A DNA stretch of 37,362 nucleotides, taken from a virus. The number at the start of each line of letters is the position of its first letter. Position 1 is the first letter of the stretch. The position numbers were made by a program, and so were the translations under genes. The DNA lies in IMG/VR virus record IMGVR_UViG_3300045131_000420, positions 1 to 37,362 of that record, one strand, 5' to 3'. Positions 5,177 to 26,414 of the stretch are shown in pieces. The notes beneath the pieces were generated by a model that saw nothing but the letters and a program-made list of their open reading frames with translations, ran no database searches and was not told where the DNA came from.

Positions 5177-5821
5177 CTACTTTTGCCTCTTTGGTACCCC
5201 TTTTTGAGCTAAGGATATTTTTTGCTTTGTTTCGTCAGAAACATGAAATCCAACCATGTTTTTATTGCCAATCTTTGCTTCACTTAGTTTTTTTCTCGTT
5301 TCTTCTGACGCTTTCTTCCCTAAGTTAGCTAATCTAAGTTTTTCTTTCTTTTCTTCTGAACATGGCGGCAACTTTCTTCCTGTCATCATTTCAGACATGT
5401 GTGCTTTATGTTCTTCTGACCATTTTACCCCTTTTCTACTCGGAGGCGTAATGTTTTTTTGTTTGAGAACTTCGCGAATTTTATCTTTTGTTTCTTGTGA
5501 ATGATTTTTGTTTTGACAGCCTCCAAACAATCTGTTATATCCACAACTTCTGTCTGTGGCATTATAAAACCCAATCCAATATAACTCGCGTTGATCGCGC
5601 TGATCTTCAATACAGGCTTCAAGGATAGAATATTCAAAAGCCTCTAACCCATACTTGTTATAAGATGCCTGTAAATAACTATTGCCATGATACCCGCCTT
5701 TTAATTCGCTTTTATGTCCGCGCCATCGCGTGGTACAAGACTTGGATTGTCCGATATACACCTTGTTTGTTATTGTGTTTCTAATGCAATATATACCGGA
5801 TATATGGTTTTTAATTGGCAT
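5177..5821 (-). CDS. GIY-YIG homing endonuclease with NUMOD3 repeats
   Basis: A 214-residue protein. Residues 9-11 (GIY) and 22-24 (YIG in KVYIGQS), with arginines at 32 and 34, form an intact GIY-YIG nuclease core. From about residue 107 there are five NUMOD3-type DNA-binding repeats of the pattern S-(E/D)-E-x-K-x-K-(I/L)-x-x-(A/M). This is the layout of free-standing phage homing endonucleases, which cut phage DNA lacking the gene and spread by repair. It interrupts the scaffold-capsid gene pair, and unlike its neighbours it has its own consensus promoter (5842-5870) and terminator (5119-5149), so it is probably expressed independently of late control. Confidence 0.9.
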   Translation of the reverse strand: MPIKNHISGIYCIRNTITNKVYIGQSKSCTTRWRGHKSELKGGYHGNSYLQASYNKYGLEAFEYSILEACIEDQRDQRELYWIGFYNATDRSCGYNRLFGGCQNKNHSQETKDKIREVLKQKNITPPSRKGVKWSEEHKAHMSEMMTGRKLPPCSEEKKEKLRLANLGKKASEETRKKLSEAKIGNKNMVGFHVSDETKQKISLAQKGVPKRQK

Positions 5822-8661: not shown

Positions 8662-10030
8662 CTTGCGCCTCCTGTTCTTCGCTTTCCTCGCCCTGCGCAA
8701 TTTCTGGTATGCTGACGGGTGTTGATTCCTCGTCGCTGATACGCGCCATTTCTTCATCGGCTTCTTCGTCTGTCATACCATCATATACTTTCAACGCCCT
8801 GTACTGCGACATTGTTGCTTTGTCCGCTGTTCTGGACTTCATAATTGCAGCCTCTTCAACTGGGTCGCTCGGTAATCCGTCCGCCCACTTAATCGCTACG
8901 TCAGTTATTTTCTTTATGCCTATACCGCCTAATTCACTGCATAACTGTATCGCCTGCTTTAACGCTGGGTCGAATCTCATGCGTACGCGATTAACCTTTG
9001 CCAACGGCGAAATCATTAACCTCTTTAACGCGCTACCCGACGGCACCTGTCCTGTTGATGTGCTTAAATCGCCAAACACCGCACTACCCATTTCACTTAT
9101 TGTATATAACATTTGTGTTAACTTGTCGATTTGCTTGAAATTCGCTTCCAATTGCCCGTCCCATGTGATGTACTTAACTTCTGGGTCGTCGTTTGTGTCT
9201 CTCGCGAAATACCCGCCCATCTTCAACCTGTACTCGCCTGTAATAGGGTCGCGCTCTAACGCTGACGCTGCACCTTGTACGCTTGGATTTGCGTGTTTGT
9301 CTAATATTCTGTCTATCTGTCCCACGCGCACCATTATATCCGCTACTATGCTGTCGATATCTGTATAATCGTCCATACCTGTTATTCTGTCTGATACCAA
9401 TATGTTAGGTATCTGTATAATTGCGAAATCCGATAACCCCGTCCGAACAACCGTACGCGCCTCTGTTTCTTTCGCTATGGTTTCGCCGTCTAATTTATAT
9501 GTCCTCGTTTCGTACGAACCCCGATAATGTATTCTAACGTTTAATGTGTCCCCGTCCGCCCATGCGATAACGTGATTCACAATCTTATGTATGTTCTTGA
9601 TATCCACTACTGGATACCATATACACGGCTGTGTAATATCAATGCCCTCTTTGCTAATTTCTAAAAGCCCGTCGCCATACCTCGACACGTCAATCGCTGC
9701 TTGGTATGCCGTGTTGATTAAATCGCTCGTCTTTATTATCTCGTCAATCGTTTCCTGCGACGTCTTTGACGTGATGCTTGGTACCTCGCCTAATAATAAA
9801 TCTGCTACCTTCAAGCTCATTAATTTTTGATAATTAAAAATAACTGGATACGATACGATGTCTTGAAAATTAGATATAACACGCTCAATGCGCTTCAATT
9901 CTTCCTTATACACTTCCGCGTGATTACATTCAAATAACGCTCTATGCTCGTTGTATGTCTTAATCCTGTCTCGCTCACACTCGGGCGGGAACACCTCGCC
10001 AATGTCTAAAAAACTCAAACTTGTTAACAC
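8642..10030 (-). CDS. Portal protein (SPP1 gp6 / minor capsid 1-like)
   Basis: About 462 residues of the SPP1-type portal family: an FNYQKLMSLKVADLLLGEVP segment, a central beta-rich part with VADIMVRVGQIDRILDKHA, GDLSTSTGQVPSGSALKRL near the crown helix, and an acidic tail (EESEEQEAQDEQIEV). It forms the dodecameric ring through which DNA is packaged and the tail attached. I chose the GTG at 10030, preceded by AGGGGAGGG, because family similarity begins right after it. That start lies inside the last codons of the upstream GIY-YIG gene, so the endonuclease insertion overlaps the portal's translation start. Confidence 0.85.
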   Translation of the reverse strand: MLTSLSFLDIGEVFPPECERDRIKTYNEHRALFECNHAEVYKEELKRIERVISNFQDIVSYPVIFNYQKLMSLKVADLLLGEVPSITSKTSQETIDEIIKTSDLINTAYQAAIDVSRYGDGLLEISKEGIDITQPCIWYPVVDIKNIHKIVNHVIAWADGDTLNVRIHYRGSYETRTYKLDGETIAKETEARTVVRTGLSDFAIIQIPNILVSDRITGMDDYTDIDSIVADIMVRVGQIDRILDKHANPSVQGAASALERDPITGEYRLKMGGYFARDTNDDPEVKYITWDGQLEANFKQIDKLTQMLYTISEMGSAVFGDLSTSTGQVPSGSALKRLMISPLAKVNRVRMRFDPALKQAIQLCSELGGIGIKKITDVAIKWADGLPSDPVEEAAIMKSRTADKATMSQYRALKVYDGMTDEEADEEMARISDEESTPVSIPEIAQGEESEEQEAQDEQIEV

Positions 10031-10668
10031 GTTGTACCCTCCCCTTGTATAATATATTCCCACGCATACCCACCTGTGTGTTTTCTTTTTCCAACACATA
10101 CCCGTGTTATGTGCGTGCTTTTTAGATTATAATGCTCTGCTGCTTCTTTAATTGATTCAAACTTTATGCCTGTGTCAATGTTTAATACCGCCCTTTTAAT
10201 TTTTTCAATAGACGCCAACCTTGCTTTGTCCATGCTTTTATAATTGCCTTTTCTGTCTTCTGACCATTTTTGTTTTTGTTCGTCGGAATGCGTCTTTCCA
10301 AAAAACGGGTTATTTTTACCTAAATAAACCCCATCTTTTTTTCTTCTTTGCTTTTCTTTTGTTTCTAGCGTGTGTCCGTATCCTAACGTGTTTCCTGCTA
10401 TTCTACATATGTTTAATTCTGGATTCACCTTATCAATATGCGCTTGTTCGTATGCAAGCATCTTTTCTTTGTCCTCTACTTCTTCAATTATAGTAAAAAT
10501 CAACGACTCCGCCCCATATTTATTAAACATATTTTGTAGATACTTATTTGAATGCTTCCCACTTTTTAATTTCCTCAAGTGCTCCGCCCATCGCTTTTTA
10601 AATCCTACCGTTGTGCTCCATATATATTTCTTTTCGTTTATTTGTATTTGGTATACGCCTATTCTCAT
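10024..10668 (-). CDS. GIY-YIG endonuclease with altered YIG motif and NUMOD1-like end
   Basis: A 214-residue protein between the large terminase and portal genes. Residues 4-6 (GVY) and 15-17 (YIW) align with the GIY-YIG core, with R26 and a downstream glutamate region (EEVEDKEKMLAYEQ) as in the family, but the glycine of YIG is tryptophan here. The C-terminus (KFESIKEAAEHYNLKSTHI, then GYAWEYI) resembles a NUMOD1 DNA-binding helix-turn-helix. Lysine-rich middle repeats (KTHSDEQKQKWSEDRKG) resemble NUMOD3. It has no visible promoter and overlaps the portal start by 7 bases. It is either a weakened homing enzyme or one that tolerates this residue. Confidence 0.8.
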   Translation of the reverse strand: MRIGVYQIQINEKKYIWSTTVGFKKRWAEHLRKLKSGKHSNKYLQNMFNKYGAESLIFTIIEEVEDKEKMLAYEQAHIDKVNPELNICRIAGNTLGYGHTLETKEKQRRKKDGVYLGKNNPFFGKTHSDEQKQKWSEDRKGNYKSMDKARLASIEKIKRAVLNIDTGIKFESIKEAAEHYNLKSTHITRVCVGKRKHTGGYAWEYIIQGEGTTC

Positions 10669-10682
10669 TGTTTGCCCTATCC

Positions 10683-11912
10683 TTATATGTTTATGTTTAC
10701 GAACCCAATTGATGTCTTTGCTTCCCTCTCTAACGCATATCTCAACGCTGAAATTAAATGGTCACGCTTTCCAACCGGTATTGGTATTACATTCCCTTGT
10801 TTGTCCTCTTGCCATTTATACTGCGCTATCTCATTTTTAAAATTCTGACAACGCATATCAACAAATATTTTGTGCTGTTGTAACCATTGTAACCCGTGTT
10901 GCACGCTGTCCTTGCCCTTCTTTGCGCCTAACGCAGAAATACCCTCGTTTTTTAATTCCTGTATGGACTTCGGCTCTGCTGAATCACAAGTTACGTATTC
11001 GTATCCAATTATGTTTTTTATTTCGCGTGCCAATACATCATTGGTTAATCCTTTTTCATACAATTCGTCTAACACATATATGCTTTTATGTTTGCGGTCA
11101 TAATGCACCCTAATTAATGCTGCTTCATCTTCTGCAAAGCCAAAATCCAAACCATTGCAATAATTATCAGCCGTTTTCCTCATTTCTGATAAATCCTCAA
11201 CCGACCAATTCTTGAATATTACCGCGCCCAACACGCCCCAATTGCCTAACGTGTAAACGTTGTAATAATATTCGTCCGTTTCGTTCTCTAATAATTTTTT
11301 ATCGTCCTCTGTTAAAAACGCGTTGTCCTTGTACGTTGTTTTTAATATTGCGACCCCGTTGCCTTTAAATTCGCGCTTACTATCTTCCCAACCATTAAAA
11401 AACTCTGTATATATCCACGACGTTTTTAATATCGGATTAAATGTTATTATCACCTGCTTCTTCCCCGACGTTTCGCCACGCAACCGCTTCGTTAATTCTT
11501 TGTAACTCTGATAGCTGACTTCTGTGCCTTCCTCTATCCATATCTTTTCTATTACTCCCTTTATTGGTGTAATAGACTTTAGCTTCTGTGCGTCGTCTAA
11601 CCCCGCAAACAATATTTGATTCCTGTTTTTCTTATATGTTATTACCATGTCCGTCTTGTTGACACTGAACGCGCCTTCTAAATCGTACATCGTAATACAT
11701 TTCTGTATTTCGTTGAATACGCTCGCCCGAATTGTCTTCGCAACGTTACGCACAACCAAATAACTCCCTATACCCGACGTAATGTCCGCAATAACCTTCT
11801 GCGCCATAAATACTGACTTTCCCGACGACGAGCCCCCATATAATATAATAACGTCTACGTCCTCACATTGCTTTATGTACGGCAAATATATTTTATTTAC
11901 CCTCATTTCCAT
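10683..11912 (-). CDS. terL: Terminase large subunit
   Basis: A 409-residue ATPase-nuclease that packages DNA into proheads. Walker A is GGSSSGKS at residues 26-33, Walker B is IWIEEG near 124-129, and a GETSGKKQVIITFNP coupling segment follows. The RNase-H-like nuclease domain starts at CNGLDFGFAEDEAAL, with DFGF carrying the first acidic residue, and a further CDSAEP near residue 313. The length is typical for PBSX/SPP1-type large subunits. The start is ATG 11912, two bases after the small-subunit stop; an in-frame ATG lies two codons later. Confidence 0.93.
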   Translation of the reverse strand: MEMRVNKIYLPYIKQCEDVDVIILYGGSSSGKSVFMAQKVIADITSGIGSYLVVRNVAKTIRASVFNEIQKCITMYDLEGAFSVNKTDMVITYKKNRNQILFAGLDDAQKLKSITPIKGVIEKIWIEEGTEVSYQSYKELTKRLRGETSGKKQVIITFNPILKTSWIYTEFFNGWEDSKREFKGNGVAILKTTYKDNAFLTEDDKKLLENETDEYYYNVYTLGNWGVLGAVIFKNWSVEDLSEMRKTADNYCNGLDFGFAEDEAALIRVHYDRKHKSIYVLDELYEKGLTNDVLAREIKNIIGYEYVTCDSAEPKSIQELKNEGISALGAKKGKDSVQHGLQWLQQHKIFVDMRCQNFKNEIAQYKWQEDKQGNVIPIPVGKRDHLISALRYALEREAKTSIGFVNINI

Positions 11913-16342: not shown

Positions 16343-17308
16343 TTAATATTTAACTCCGATATAATCTAATACTTTACCTAACCCTAAGCCGTTTTCTTCT
16401 GTCGGTCTAATGCAATAATCGTACATTTTTGGGTGTGTTATTTTCATGCGCTGAAATCTGTTGGGTTCCTTTTCTAAATGACAACCAAACATACAGAACA
16501 TGCACCCTGTTCGTTGCTCCCCTGTTGTATGTAACGGTCTGCCTGTGTCGTCCCCGAACAAACTTATCTGCCCTTCTAAGTCATCTTCAATTTCTCCATA
16601 AATAGTCGAATATGGAATGTTAAATTTTTTTATGTATTGTAATATATCTTGCTCTTTCCAAAACGATAAAGGTTTCGATATTGGCGGTTTTGTGTCGAAC
16701 GCGTTGCATCCAGTTTTTAACCATGCTTGTTTTCTTTGTCCCGATTCATCTGCTGTTGTGCCAACAAAGGCTCTTGTTCTTTTTTGATATACTTTTAATG
16801 GCTTTTTTTTTATTTCTTCGCAGCACTTGCTTGATATGCAAAACGGCGCGTTAATTAAATATTTATATTTTTTATATCTTTGCTTAAACTCGTCCCTGTT
16901 GCCTTTTGGGTCTTCCCCGTTAAATCGGTTGGTTGCCCACACTTTGCTTTTTTTTGCATAGTATACCATCTTTGCCACCTCTTTGCTTATAACTGGATAC
17001 CCATACTTTTTTATAACCTCAACGAATGTCGTTGCAGGCTTTACCCATGTTACATTATCTATTGTTTTTACAAATTCTCTTATCTCTGGATATTCTAATC
17101 CTGTATCAGCAAAGACCGCTTCGACATCTGGATACATTTCTCTGACTATGTGTAACAAAACTGTGCTATCTTTACCGCCACTAAATGACACATTTACATC
17201 GCCCTCCCAATGCTCGTACCATTCTCTTATGCGTTGTTTTGTTTTTTCTATTTTGACTTCTAGTGGTAAAGATTGCAGTTGTTTTAATTGCCACATCTCA
17301 TGTGTCAT
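16343..17308 (-). CDS. PAPS reductase / DndC-like PP-loop protein
   Basis: 321 residues. The PP-loop SGGKDST is at residues 43-49, followed by VEAVFADTGLEYPEI typical of PAPS reductase / sulfotransferase-like enzymes that bind adenylated substrates. Cysteines at 157, 162, 163, 201 and in GCMFCMFGC (269-276) could hold an iron-sulfur cluster or zinc, as in DndC/IbrA-like relatives. Phage homologues are widespread; suggested roles are sulfur-based nucleic-acid modification or altered host sulfur metabolism, none proven. It lies between a helicase-loader-like gene and a VRR-NUC gene and so belongs to the DNA metabolism block. Confidence 0.85.
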   Translation of the reverse strand: MTHEMWQLKQLQSLPLEVKIEKTKQRIREWYEHWEGDVNVSFSGGKDSTVLLHIVREMYPDVEAVFADTGLEYPEIREFVKTIDNVTWVKPATTFVEVIKKYGYPVISKEVAKMVYYAKKSKVWATNRFNGEDPKGNRDEFKQRYKKYKYLINAPFCISSKCCEEIKKKPLKVYQKRTRAFVGTTADESGQRKQAWLKTGCNAFDTKPPISKPLSFWKEQDILQYIKKFNIPYSTIYGEIEDDLEGQISLFGDDTGRPLHTTGEQRTGCMFCMFGCHLEKEPNRFQRMKITHPKMYDYCIRPTEENGLGLGKVLDYIGVKY

Positions 17309-23371: not shown

Positions 23372-24487
23372 TCACAATACTTTGCATCGTGTTATCGCTG
23401 TTTGCTTAACGCCGTTATACTCTGAATGCTCTTTTATGCTACCCTTTAACGATATTTTGTCGCCTTCGCGTGCGTTTATGCCGTTGCTACTGTTCCACTT
23501 GAATACGTTTTTGTTTTCGTCTTCAAATATATAAATATACGAAACGCCACCGTAATAAGTAAAATGATTTTCATATGTTATTATCGCCTTCACCGTGACA
23601 TTAACCGTTATCTTGTCCCCAACGTTCCCGACGTGCTTTGATTCTGATACCGTTTCAACCTTTTCCGTTTTTGCAATTTCCTTCTTATACGCTTCGTATG
23701 CGTATGCGATAAATCCACTTGCTTTTGTATACTCTGCGCGCAATGCGTTTTTAATGTTGTTCATAAAAACGTCCGACGCTTCGTATTCTTTTGCCTTGAA
23801 ATATTCCATAATTTCCGTCGCCTTTGCCATGTTGAGATTGTTGCCGTGTTGCCACGCTTCGTCCGCTGTCGAATTTACAAACTCGGTTTTTTTGTATCCG
23901 TGTGCGTCAATTTGCCACACGCACGCCGCGAGATATTCTAGCGTTGGCATGTACCTATCCGAACCGCCTAAATGCGACCTGTCGCCTTTTGGCTCTTCGT
24001 TTATTATGTCATTTATGCTCGCATACGCCCCGATTACCTCGATTGCGTCGATGCCAGTATACTCATGTACGCACGTCGTGCCGACTTGCTTTACGACGTC
24101 GTTTTGCTTCAATAGAACGGTCTTGTTGCGCGAACGATTAACGTTGCAATGTTCGCACTTGGATTTTGCCGTCCACCACTCTGCGCCTATTTCCATGTCC
24201 CCGAACACATGGATAACGTTTCCGTCTGTACCGTGCTCAATTAACGCCTCTACTGTGTGTGTCCCAACCTTTAACTGTTGCATCGTGAATTCGTACGAAA
24301 CAACGTCAAGAACAACGCTACCAATTTTGATTTTTTCGTTATCTATAATGTCGAACACGTCTACCTTTTCTGCGCCTTCGCCGATAACGCGAAAGTTCCA
24401 TTCCATGCCGTACTTGTCCAACTTTTTTGTCGTTGCTCTTATGCGCTTCTGTAACTCTGTAAAATTCTGTTTCAAACATTTATACAT
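23372..24487 (-). CDS. Early protein with zinc-ribbon-like and OB-like parts
   Basis: About 371 residues from ATG 24487 (AAGGGGG upstream). CEHCNVNRSRNKTVLL ... GTTCVHEYTG forms a possible Cys4/His zinc ribbon near residues 125-160, followed by a helical middle. The last about 100 residues (VGDKITVNVTVKAIITYEN, YIFEDENKNVFKWNSSNG, GDKISLKGSIKEHSEYNGVKQT) look like an OB fold, as in SSB-like proteins. I remember similar proteins on phages and plasmids of Firmicutes, where DNA binding is presumed. It is the largest early gene and is preceded by a pseudoknot-like RNA element. Confidence 0.65.
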   Translation of the reverse strand: MYKCLKQNFTELQKRIRATTKKLDKYGMEWNFRVIGEGAEKVDVFDIIDNEKIKIGSVVLDVVSYEFTMQQLKVGTHTVEALIEHGTDGNVIHVFGDMEIGAEWWTAKSKCEHCNVNRSRNKTVLLKQNDVVKQVGTTCVHEYTGIDAIEVIGAYASINDIINEEPKGDRSHLGGSDRYMPTLEYLAACVWQIDAHGYKKTEFVNSTADEAWQHGNNLNMAKATEIMEYFKAKEYEASDVFMNNIKNALRAEYTKASGFIAYAYEAYKKEIAKTEKVETVSESKHVGNVGDKITVNVTVKAIITYENHFTYYGGVSYIYIFEDENKNVFKWNSSNGINAREGDKISLKGSIKEHSEYNGVKQTAITRCKVL

Positions 24488-24502: not shown

Positions 24503-24550
24503 GGTGGACTTGTGACCACCCCTGTGCATTACCCGCCTTTCGGCGGTCAC
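24503..24550 (-). promoter_or_regulatory. Pseudoknot-like RNA element, copy 1
   Basis: Transcript order: GTGA (24550-24547); a 5-bp hairpin CCGCC-GAAA-GGCGG (24546-24533); GTAATGC (24532-24526); hairpin GGTGG (24520-24516) / CCACC (24507-24503) whose 8-nt loop begins TCAC (24515-24512) and can pair with the initial GTGA. The ribosome binding site of the 371-residue gene follows at once. Copy 2 (25877-25925) keeps the fold with different stem bases. Confidence 0.7.
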
Positions 24551-24554
24551 TCTG

Positions 24555-24719
24555 CTATCTGCTTAACTCGTCCCTGTGATAAAACACCGTATACTGCCCT
24601 TCCCCTTGATATTCTTCCAAAACCCTAAACCCTTTTTCATGCATTACCGCTTTGTCTTTGTCGGCTTCCTTCTTGCTTGTGTAATCGTACCCCTTTTCCG
24701 TGTATATTGACTTTTTCAT
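24555..24719 (-). CDS. Small hypothetical early protein
   Basis: 54 residues, charged, with YTSKKEADKDKAVMHEKGF and YTVFYHRDEL, a small alpha/beta pattern. Its ATG overlaps the upstream stop (ATGA) behind AAAGGGG, and it ends 5 bases before the RNA element. Confidence 0.6.
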   Translation of the reverse strand: MKKSIYTEKGYDYTSKKEADKDKAVMHEKGFRVLEEYQGEGQYTVFYHRDELSR

Positions 24720-24910
24720 TTTACCAGTCCCCTTTCTGTTCCTACGTATATTTCTTCGTTGTCGCTATTTACTACTACTGCTACTATACCACCGCCCGTC
24801 ATAATGTCTGCTGCGTCTTTCGCGACGGATAACCTGCACGTCCTTGTAAATACTAACCTTGATATTCCCTTACCGCCTGTCAATACCACCGTATAACCTT
24901 GCTTTTTCAT
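24716..24910 (-). CDS. Small hypothetical early protein
   Basis: 64 residues: beta strands TVVLTGGKGISRLVFTRTC and IVAVVVNSDNEEIYVGTE around a short helix. It is the first gene after the early promoter at 24956-24984. The family is unknown. Confidence 0.6.
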   Translation of the reverse strand: MKKQGYTVVLTGGKGISRLVFTRTCRLSVAKDAADIMTGGGIVAVVVNSDNEEIYVGTERGLVK

Positions 24911-24955
24911 GTTCTGCTCCGTTTCTGCACCTGTGTGCGCCTTTGTTATACGTCA

Positions 24956-24984
24956 ATAATACCACTGATACCATACCACGTCAA
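24956..24984 (-). promoter_or_regulatory. Early promoter A
   Basis: TTGACG (24984-24979), 17-base spacer, TATTAT (24961-24956), extended -10 TGG. Three GGTAT motifs lie within and around the spacer. Confidence 0.8.
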
Positions 24985-25010
24985 GCGTTTTGTAAAATAT
25001 TTTTTTGTAC

Positions 25011-25040
25011 AAAAAAGGAGCCCGCATCTCTGCGAGCCCC
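25011..25040 (-). terminator. Rho-independent terminator
   Basis: GGGGCTCGC (25040-25032) pairs with GCGGGCTCC (25025-25017) over nine positions (two G-U) around AGAGAT, followed by TTTTTT (25016-25011). It ends the unit of 25047-26275. Confidence 0.85.
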
Positions 25041-25046
25041 CGACTA

Positions 25047-25472
25047 TTATACTTCTTCTACCTTCTTATCAAAATGCTTTTCGTACTGCTTTTTCATTGA
25101 CCAATAATACTCGCTCTCGATTTCTTGCCCGGCCGCTTCCAACTCCGCCCGCATCTGATTAACTAATCGCACAACCTTTTCGTTATATTCCTTTTCCCTC
25201 TTTTGTATATCGTTTAACTTGTCCTGTTCCTCTCGCGTGACGATTGGTGCTAAACTCATAAACTTGTATACACCATACATGCACACATATGCGTTGTTGC
25301 TCTCGTCCCAATACCTTCCGCCAACGACTATGCTATGTGGCATGTGTGCGTCCTCGCAATAAATCGCGACCTTTGCCCCGTCTATTTCTATGTGCTCCGT
25401 CTCGCATTTATGCGCCTCGCCGTAACTGCCGTGTAATTTGTTGCATAACTCGCATTGATAAACTGTTTTCAT
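25047..25472 (-). CDS. Early protein with N-terminal zinc-finger-like motif
   Basis: 141 residues. CELCNKLHGSYGEAHKCETEH at the start is a C-x2-C-x11-H/C arrangement, a possible zinc finger. The second half is a long charged coiled coil (TREEQDKLNDIQKREKEYNE). AAAAGGGG precedes the ATG. Last gene of its unit; the role is unknown. Confidence 0.6.
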   Translation of the reverse strand: MKTVYQCELCNKLHGSYGEAHKCETEHIEIDGAKVAIYCEDAHMPHSIVVGGRYWDESNNAYVCMYGVYKFMSLAPIVTREEQDKLNDIQKREKEYNEKVVRLVNQMRAELEAAGQEIESEYYWSMKKQYEKHFDKKVEEV

Positions 25473-25654
25473 TTTCTTGTCCCCTTTTCCGTTTTTTTGA
25501 TTTTATTTGTGCGCACGCTTGTAAATTCTACAAACCTGTCGTGCAAATAATACTTCTCGTTCATTATTTTTGTCAACTTGCTTCTTGCCTCGTCCATGTT
25601 CTTTGCCATAATTTCGTATGTTTCGAAATTTATTACGCCAATGTAATTTCTCAT
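25469..25654 (-). CDS. Small hypothetical early protein
   Basis: 61 residues from ATG 25654, which overlaps the upstream stop and has GGGGGG before it. YIGVINFETYEIMAKNMDEA with a basic C-terminus. No family is recognised. Confidence 0.55.
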   Translation of the reverse strand: MRNYIGVINFETYEIMAKNMDEARSKLTKIMNEKYYLHDRFVEFTSVRTNKIKKTEKGTRK

Positions 25655-25851
25655 TTCGTTCCCCCCGTTGATGCTGCAACCACTTCTATTTGCCATAACC
25701 CAGAAAAATACTCCCGCGTACACGTTCCGTGTTCCAAACATTCCTCGACCATTTCGTTCACGTCTTCGTCGTTTTCGTTCATCGCCGTCCACCACTCGCT
25801 GTTTCCTTCAAACACGACTTCCCCATCGTTTTTTACTACTATTTTTGCCAT
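25651..25851 (-). CDS. Small acidic early protein
   Basis: 66 residues: MAKIVVKNDGEVVFEGNSEW, then an acidic helix (NENDEDVNEMVEECLEHG) and a beta-rich end. Acidity raises the possibility of a DNA mimic or inhibitor, but this is a guess. It follows the second RNA element and has AAGGGGG upstream. Confidence 0.55.
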   Translation of the reverse strand: MAKIVVKNDGEVVFEGNSEWWTAMNENDEDVNEMVEECLEHGTCTREYFSGLWQIEVVAASTGGTK

Positions 25852-25876
25852 TTTGCTATCCCCCTTAATTTTACGT

Positions 25877-25925
25877 GGTCGGGATTGTGACCGACCTTCC
25901 GCATTACCGCGCTTACGCGCGTCAC
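25877..25925 (-). promoter_or_regulatory. Pseudoknot-like RNA element, copy 2
   Basis: GTGA (25925-25922) includes the stop codon of the gene before. Hairpin CGCGC-GTAA-GCGCG (25921-25908); GTAATGC (25907-25901); hairpin GGTCGG (25896-25891) / CCGACC (25882-25877) with loop starting TCAC (25890-25887). Compared with copy 1 both stems change on both sides while GTGA/TCAC, the GNRA loop, GTAATGC and loop TCACAA stay the same. Confidence 0.7.
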
Positions 25926-26275
25926 TCTGCTGTCTTGAAATTTCCGTTGGAATCCAACTCGAATTTTGTGTCTCTAGCTTGCGCTTTCAACCAAATGTAA
26001 TCTCTCTTGCCCTTGTAATGAATTGGATATTCTCTAAAACTGTTCATGTAATTTACCATTCTCTCGTCCTCTGTGAAAACGCCCTTAACGTTGAACGTTC
26101 CGATAAACTTGTGGTCATCAGCGTAGACGCTCTTAATCGCAATCCCCGCCGATGTGTGATACTCGCCGTATTCAAATACCACGCTTGCCTCATTGTAAAC
26201 GCGAAGCCATTTTTTTACTTCTTCCTGTACTGATGCTGGTAACTTGTTCAATTCCTTTAATGTGTTTGTTTTCAC
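25922..26275 (-). CDS. First early protein (unknown)
   Basis: 117 residues from GTG 26275 (AGAGGGAG upstream). A basic N-terminal helix (TLKELNKLPASVQEEVKKWL) precedes an alpha/beta part with GTFNVKGVFTEDERMVNYM. It is the first gene of the early region, after promoter B, so it may redirect or inhibit a host function; no family is recognised. Confidence 0.6.
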   Translation of the reverse strand: MKTNTLKELNKLPASVQEEVKKWLRVYNEASVVFEYGEYHTSAGIAIKSVYADDHKFIGTFNVKGVFTEDERMVNYMNSFREYPIHYKGKRDYIWLKAQARDTKFELDSNGNFKTAE

Positions 26276-26319
26276 GTGTTTGCTCCCTCTGCGCCTGTGT
26301 GCGCCTTTGTTATATGTCA

Positions 26320-26348
26320 ATAATACCACTGATACCATATAGTGTCAA
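26320..26348 (-). promoter_or_regulatory. Early promoter B
   Basis: TTGACA (26348-26343), 17-base spacer, TATTAT (26325-26320), extended -10 TGG. The downstream leader is nearly the same as that of promoter A. It starts the early region. Confidence 0.85.
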
Positions 26349-26371
26349 GCGTTTTGTAAAATATATTTTTA

Positions 26372-26414
26372 CATAAAAAAAGAAGGTACACAAGCATCTC
26401 TGCCCATGTACCTT
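26372..26414 (-). terminator. Terminator of the late/lysis operon
   Basis: AAGGTACA (26414-26407) pairs with TGTACCTT (26390-26383) around a 16-nt loop, followed by CTTTTTTT (26382-26375). It lies after the endolysin stop and before promoter B. Confidence 0.85.

Follow-up and report, generated by a model that had tools for sequence, protein, structure and literature searches.

Type-P5 twister ribozymes between the genes of two early operons in a phage genome

A structured RNA element was described as occurring twice in the early region of a phage genome (IMG/VR record IMGVR_UViG_3300045131_000420; the whole stretch of 37,362 nucleotides is called the window here), each copy just before a ribosome-binding site in a different early operon, which raises the question of what this element is and what it does between the genes. 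The map of genes and promoters agrees with this placement. The main genes are all located on the minus strand. Late genes (terminase, portal, capsid, connectors, tail, endolysin) enclose an early block of replication-initiation, SSB, methyltransferase, recombination and exonuclease genes, and each copy has lysis genes on one side and replication genes on the other, in the early region as stated. Operon A follows the endolysin gene and its terminator and runs through promoter A, A1, the first copy, A2-A4 and a second terminator; directly after it, operon B consists of promoter B, B1, B2, the second copy and B3. Both operons share the order promoter, first gene(s), ribozyme, next gene(s), with all genes co-directional. 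The features are as follows.

26414-26383, minus strand: terminator after the endolysin gene
26320..26348, minus strand: promoter of operon A, sigma-70-like, TTGACA-17-TATTAT with TG before the -10 (11/12 consensus positions)
25922..26275, minus strand: gene A1, 117 aa, starting at GTG; precedes ribozyme A
25879..25931, minus strand: Twister-P5 ribozyme copy A (RF02684, 52.5 bits); P4 extends to 25877
25905..25906, minus strand: predicted cleavage site of copy A, U25906^A25905, UA step at the J1-2 junction by the twister model (PMC5408937)
25651..25851, minus strand: gene A2, 66 aa, first after ribozyme A; ribosome-binding site AAGGGGG
25047..25472, minus strand: gene A4, 141 aa, last of operon A
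25016..25041, minus strand: intrinsic terminator closing operon A, 11-pair stem and T run
24956..24984, minus strand: promoter of operon B, sigma-70-like, TTGACG-17-TATTAT; repeat of promoter region A, 89% identical
24716..24910, minus strand: gene B1, 64 aa
24555..24719, minus strand: gene B2, 54 aa, ending in a TAG stop (24557-24555) that adjoins P2 of ribozyme B
24504..24556, minus strand: Twister-P5 ribozyme copy B (RF02684, 53.0 bits); P4 reaches about 1-2 nt past 24504
24530..24531, minus strand: predicted cleavage site of copy B, U24531^A24530, UA step by alignment to the twister model
23372..24487, minus strand: gene B3, 371 aa, first after ribozyme B; phrog_2319 (function unknown), E 1e-52

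In a comparison with Rfam, the family Twister-P5 (RF02684) covered both elements with 53.0 bits for copy B and 52.5 bits for copy A at a gathering score of 37.6, corresponding to E-values of 2.1e-8 and 2.7e-8 against the whole window. Both copies were aligned over the full model (positions 1-58 of 58), and they were exactly the two above-threshold Rfam matches in the whole window. A permissive search of the whole window up to E = 5 yielded, apart from these, just two chance matches, both sub-threshold; with E-values of about 2e-8, a chance origin of the two elements is therefore excluded. Twister ribozymes are defined by the stems P1, P2 and P4, two pseudoknots and a U-A scissile step, and occur as the permutation types P1, P3 and P5 (PMC5408937). 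In both copies the alignment contains the conserved core of L1/L4 (GCAGAG, UAAUGC and GUCNCAA) and the conserved UA cleavage step, P1, P2 and P4 form by alignment and by folding, and both pseudoknots, T1 and T2, are present. As in the circular permutation with termini at P5, P1 is closed by a hairpin loop, and the element is colinear with the P5 model over its whole length. Given that the scores lie well above the curated cut-off and that the core nucleotides are present, both elements are established, at the level of sequence, as type-P5 twisters, a known class of self-cleaving ribozymes. The earlier view that no known ribozyme matches was thus mistaken: the element itself is not new, and these are new copies of an ordinary known class.

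Compared with the family as a whole (RF02684, clan CL00120), the phage copies have the same core, stems, pseudoknots, UA step and termini at P5, but they lack an evident optional P3 or P5 stem and their P1 is short. Twister sister, pistol (described as often near phage genes, PMC6154101) and hammerhead are likewise small self-cleaving ribozymes, and Rfam matched none of them anywhere in the window, up to E 5. HDV-like theta ribozymes of gut phages, which lie mostly beside tRNA genes and were proposed to trim tRNA 3' ends, are likewise self-cleaving and located in non-coding stretches of tailed-phage genomes (PMC10879173). Their fold is different, however; the HDV family had no Rfam match in the window, which speaks against membership, and, unlike the theta-ribozyme setting, no tRNA was found in the window.

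On the minus strand, 5' to 3', copy A reads AGCAGAGUGA-CGCGC-GUAA-GCGCG-GUAAUGC-GGAA-GGUCG-GUCACAAUCC-CGACC and copy B reads AGCAGAGUGA-CCGCC-GAAA-GGCGG-GUAAUGC-ACAGGG-GUGG-UCACAAGU-CCAC, the P4 of copy B having a further C on its 3' side. The segments are those of the preliminary description, and the same fold was indeed found at 25931-25879 and 24556-24504. GTGA, GTAATGC and TCACAA are identical in both copies, as it had reported, and both stems vary and still pair: P1, in both copies a 5-bp hairpin with a GNRA loop, is CGCGC/GCGCG in copy A and CCGCC/GGCGG in copy B, both partners differing in three of the pairs, and P4 pairing is kept through at least two two-sided changes. Its GNRA hairpin corresponds to P1, its GTAATGC holds the U^A site, and its pairing of GTGA with TCAC is the pseudoknot T1, which can be written as 5 bp (GUGAC/GUCAC) in both copies. 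The conserved block starts further 5' than had been noticed, with AGCAGAGTGA (AGCAGAG), whose GCA forms P2 together with the UGC of UAAUGC, and T2 had been missed; it consists of GG or GA with UC in copy A and of AC with GU in copy B.

Folding with Vienna, in which energies count nested pairs without the pseudoknot energy, returned the native P1/P2/P4 fold as the MFE of copy A with complete P4. A 9-bp hairpin (GUGACCGCC/GGUGGUCAC), the MFE structure of copy B, was considered as a switch and rejected, since four more 3' bases, which complete P4, bring the native nested fold of copy B within 0.4 kcal/mol of the MFE; the hairpin reappears in a longer fold and is still a competitor when the pseudoknot energy is uncounted. 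The folding z-score of copy A was -0.6, a measure that is uninformative on its own.

Homologues were collected with a pattern scan that fixed the core letters only. In IMG/VR it matched at least 119 stretches, and bacterial and archaeal genomes contributed at least 117 more. Filtering for at least four P1 pairs and at least three P4 pairs left 171 distinct homologues among the matches listed, a count that ignores relatedness. As selection was solely on P1 and P4, T1 and T2 could be assessed independently of the filter. The free (unspecified) T1 pair was complementary in 98.8% of the 171 homologues (shuffled mean 55%, sd 3%), and T2 likewise in 98.8% (shuffled mean 59%, sd 2.5%); for neither pseudoknot did any of 2000 shuffles reach the observed value. 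The further homologues with covariation that had been named as a check on the element are abundant, and the covariation extends to T1 and T2. Nine loci among the matches listed have arrays, with three to five copies each. At L192 (1308-3493) and L089 (842-2460), three to five copies within a few kb separate successive small genes; the other such loci are L028, L052, L054, L061, L084, L103 and L225. A common function of the genes after the ribozyme was looked for and rejected, as 74 downstream proteins fell into scattered, mostly unknown families.

Subsequently, the position of the ribozymes relative to neighboring genes was analyzed. Of the 160 homologues with enough flank among the matches listed, 150 have a co-directional ORF stop upstream; relative to the ribozyme start, this stop ends at a median of -1 nt (interquartile -5 to +1). 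A next start with a ribosome-binding-like motif was found in 147/160, at a median of +23 nt. Just 12 homologues lie inside a long same-strand ORF, compared with 44% of random positions. The 30 cases with over 40 nt to the next start were chosen to tell compaction apart from anchoring: 25 of these ribozymes are placed at -12 to +9 relative to the stop, where random placement in the gap gives 7.7 (sd 2.3) and none of 20,000 simulations reached 25, with ORFs called by a simple ORF finder, relatedness ignored and small uncalled genes possible in the long gaps. In these homologues the ribozyme position tracks the upstream stop, not the downstream start, although compaction of the genome, or small ORFs miscalled in the gaps, could account for part of the anchoring. 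At fifteen stop positions (+9), the TGA is one that the motif itself contains when it reads GAGTGA. A literature search, to whose scope two probable original discovery reports did not belong, returned no report of stop-codon anchoring of type-P5 twisters, and it may be known already.

In the phage studied here, the predicted cut falls 16 nt past the A1 stop and 24 nt past the B2 stop; the 5' leader would then be 54 nt for A2 and 43 nt for B3. We consider it probable (about 0.85) that the type-P5 twisters cut the early polycistronic transcripts at the U^A step just past the stop of the upstream gene, so that their function would be intercistronic mRNA 3'-end formation by self-cleavage. Cleavage would occur on nascent or finished early mRNA. 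The upstream message would have the P1 hairpin at its end and carry a 2',3'-cyclic phosphate, and the downstream message would begin with 5'-OH AAUGC, followed by the P4 hairpin and then the A2 or B3 ribosome-binding site. The likely purpose would be independent mRNA ends and lifetimes for neighboring early genes while transcription is not stopped. Whereas class membership was read from the sequence, we infer cleavage in vivo and an effect on mRNA stability and expression from knowledge of the ribozyme class. The processing site that the preliminary description had offered as one option fits a twister. More tentatively, and at less than even odds, type-P5 twisters may form a general phage system of stop-tied mRNA 3' ends that divides operons into messages with one gene or a few genes each and is possibly ribosome-gated; the ribozyme would then mark the end of the gene before it, regardless of where the following gene begins, and up to five successive cuts could be made.

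Because the A1 stop codon (TGA, 25924-25922) belongs to the T1 strand of ribozyme A, gating by a terminating ribosome is possible: the ribozymes would be active but controlled by translation, a ribosome at the overlapping stop covering the P2/T1/P1 strand and blocking folding, so that cleavage would report how heavily the upstream gene is translated. The B2 stop, which adjoins P2, is in line with this, as are the stops of the homologues, which cluster at -6 to +9 even where the next gene is distant. However, the stops are not in one fixed register, and the same position also suits simple formation of a 3' end that leaves the coding sequence intact; we regard gating as rather unlikely, at about one chance in four. 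Far less probable is a new RNA regulator acting in cis, for instance a translational operator or riboswitch, the other options raised at first, since the location directly before a ribosome-binding site that speaks for it is outweighed by the twister catalytic core with scores far above the cut-off, by the absence of an attached aptamer domain, by ribosome-binding sites outside the fold and by homologue positions that follow the upstream stop.

The promoter regions of both operons form a two-copy 96-nt repeat (24924-25019 and 26288-26383, minus strand, 89% identical). Its spacing of 1364 nt is close to the 1375 nt between the ribozymes, which suggests an old duplication of a promoter-gene-ribozyme unit; the intervening proteins of operons A and B have no similarity, and A1 matched no family above cut-off. 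Inactive relics of one ribozyme that was copied with its promoter by segmental duplication and kept by drift would account for the near-equal spacing, yet are highly improbable, as the copies are only 75% identical and yet have kept all their stems and both pseudoknots by compensatory changes with an unchanged core. The repeat, which contains TTGAC-N18-TATTAT and a common downstream block (TTGACNTATAACAAAGGCGCACACAGG), is likely a common early operator, and a scan of IMG/VR viral contigs for its core returned no other contig.

A blastn search of the ribozyme region against phages gave no match, and protein searches with B3, A1 and the terminase returned only contigs 99-100% identical or short fragments without the ribozyme region; the sole relatives found that hold this region belong to the same phage species. 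The closest named phages by the terminase gene (10683-11912, minus strand) are Marinitoga camini viruses (53% identical) and Thermoanaerobacterium phage THSA-485A (46%), a kinship hinting at a thermophilic host among the Thermotogota or Bacillota. No twister match was obtained in the first 49,999 of the 53,412 bases of Marinitoga camini virus 1 or in THSA-485A. Two homing endonuclease genes (GIY-YIG-like by PHROG; 5177-5821 and 10024-10668, minus strand) are located among the head genes, one beside the major head protein gene and the other between terminase and portal, and the early block includes a phosphoadenosine phosphosulfate reductase-like gene (16343-17308, minus strand).

The biological function of twister ribozymes was described as largely speculative in a 2016 review (PMC5408937). 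The element itself is of modest interest, with the exception of its stop-codon anchoring: the regular placement at upstream stops, seen at about 140 phage and bacterial loci, provides a concrete and testable proposal for the role of twisters, and this compact phage with its two parallel operons would be a convenient test case for it.
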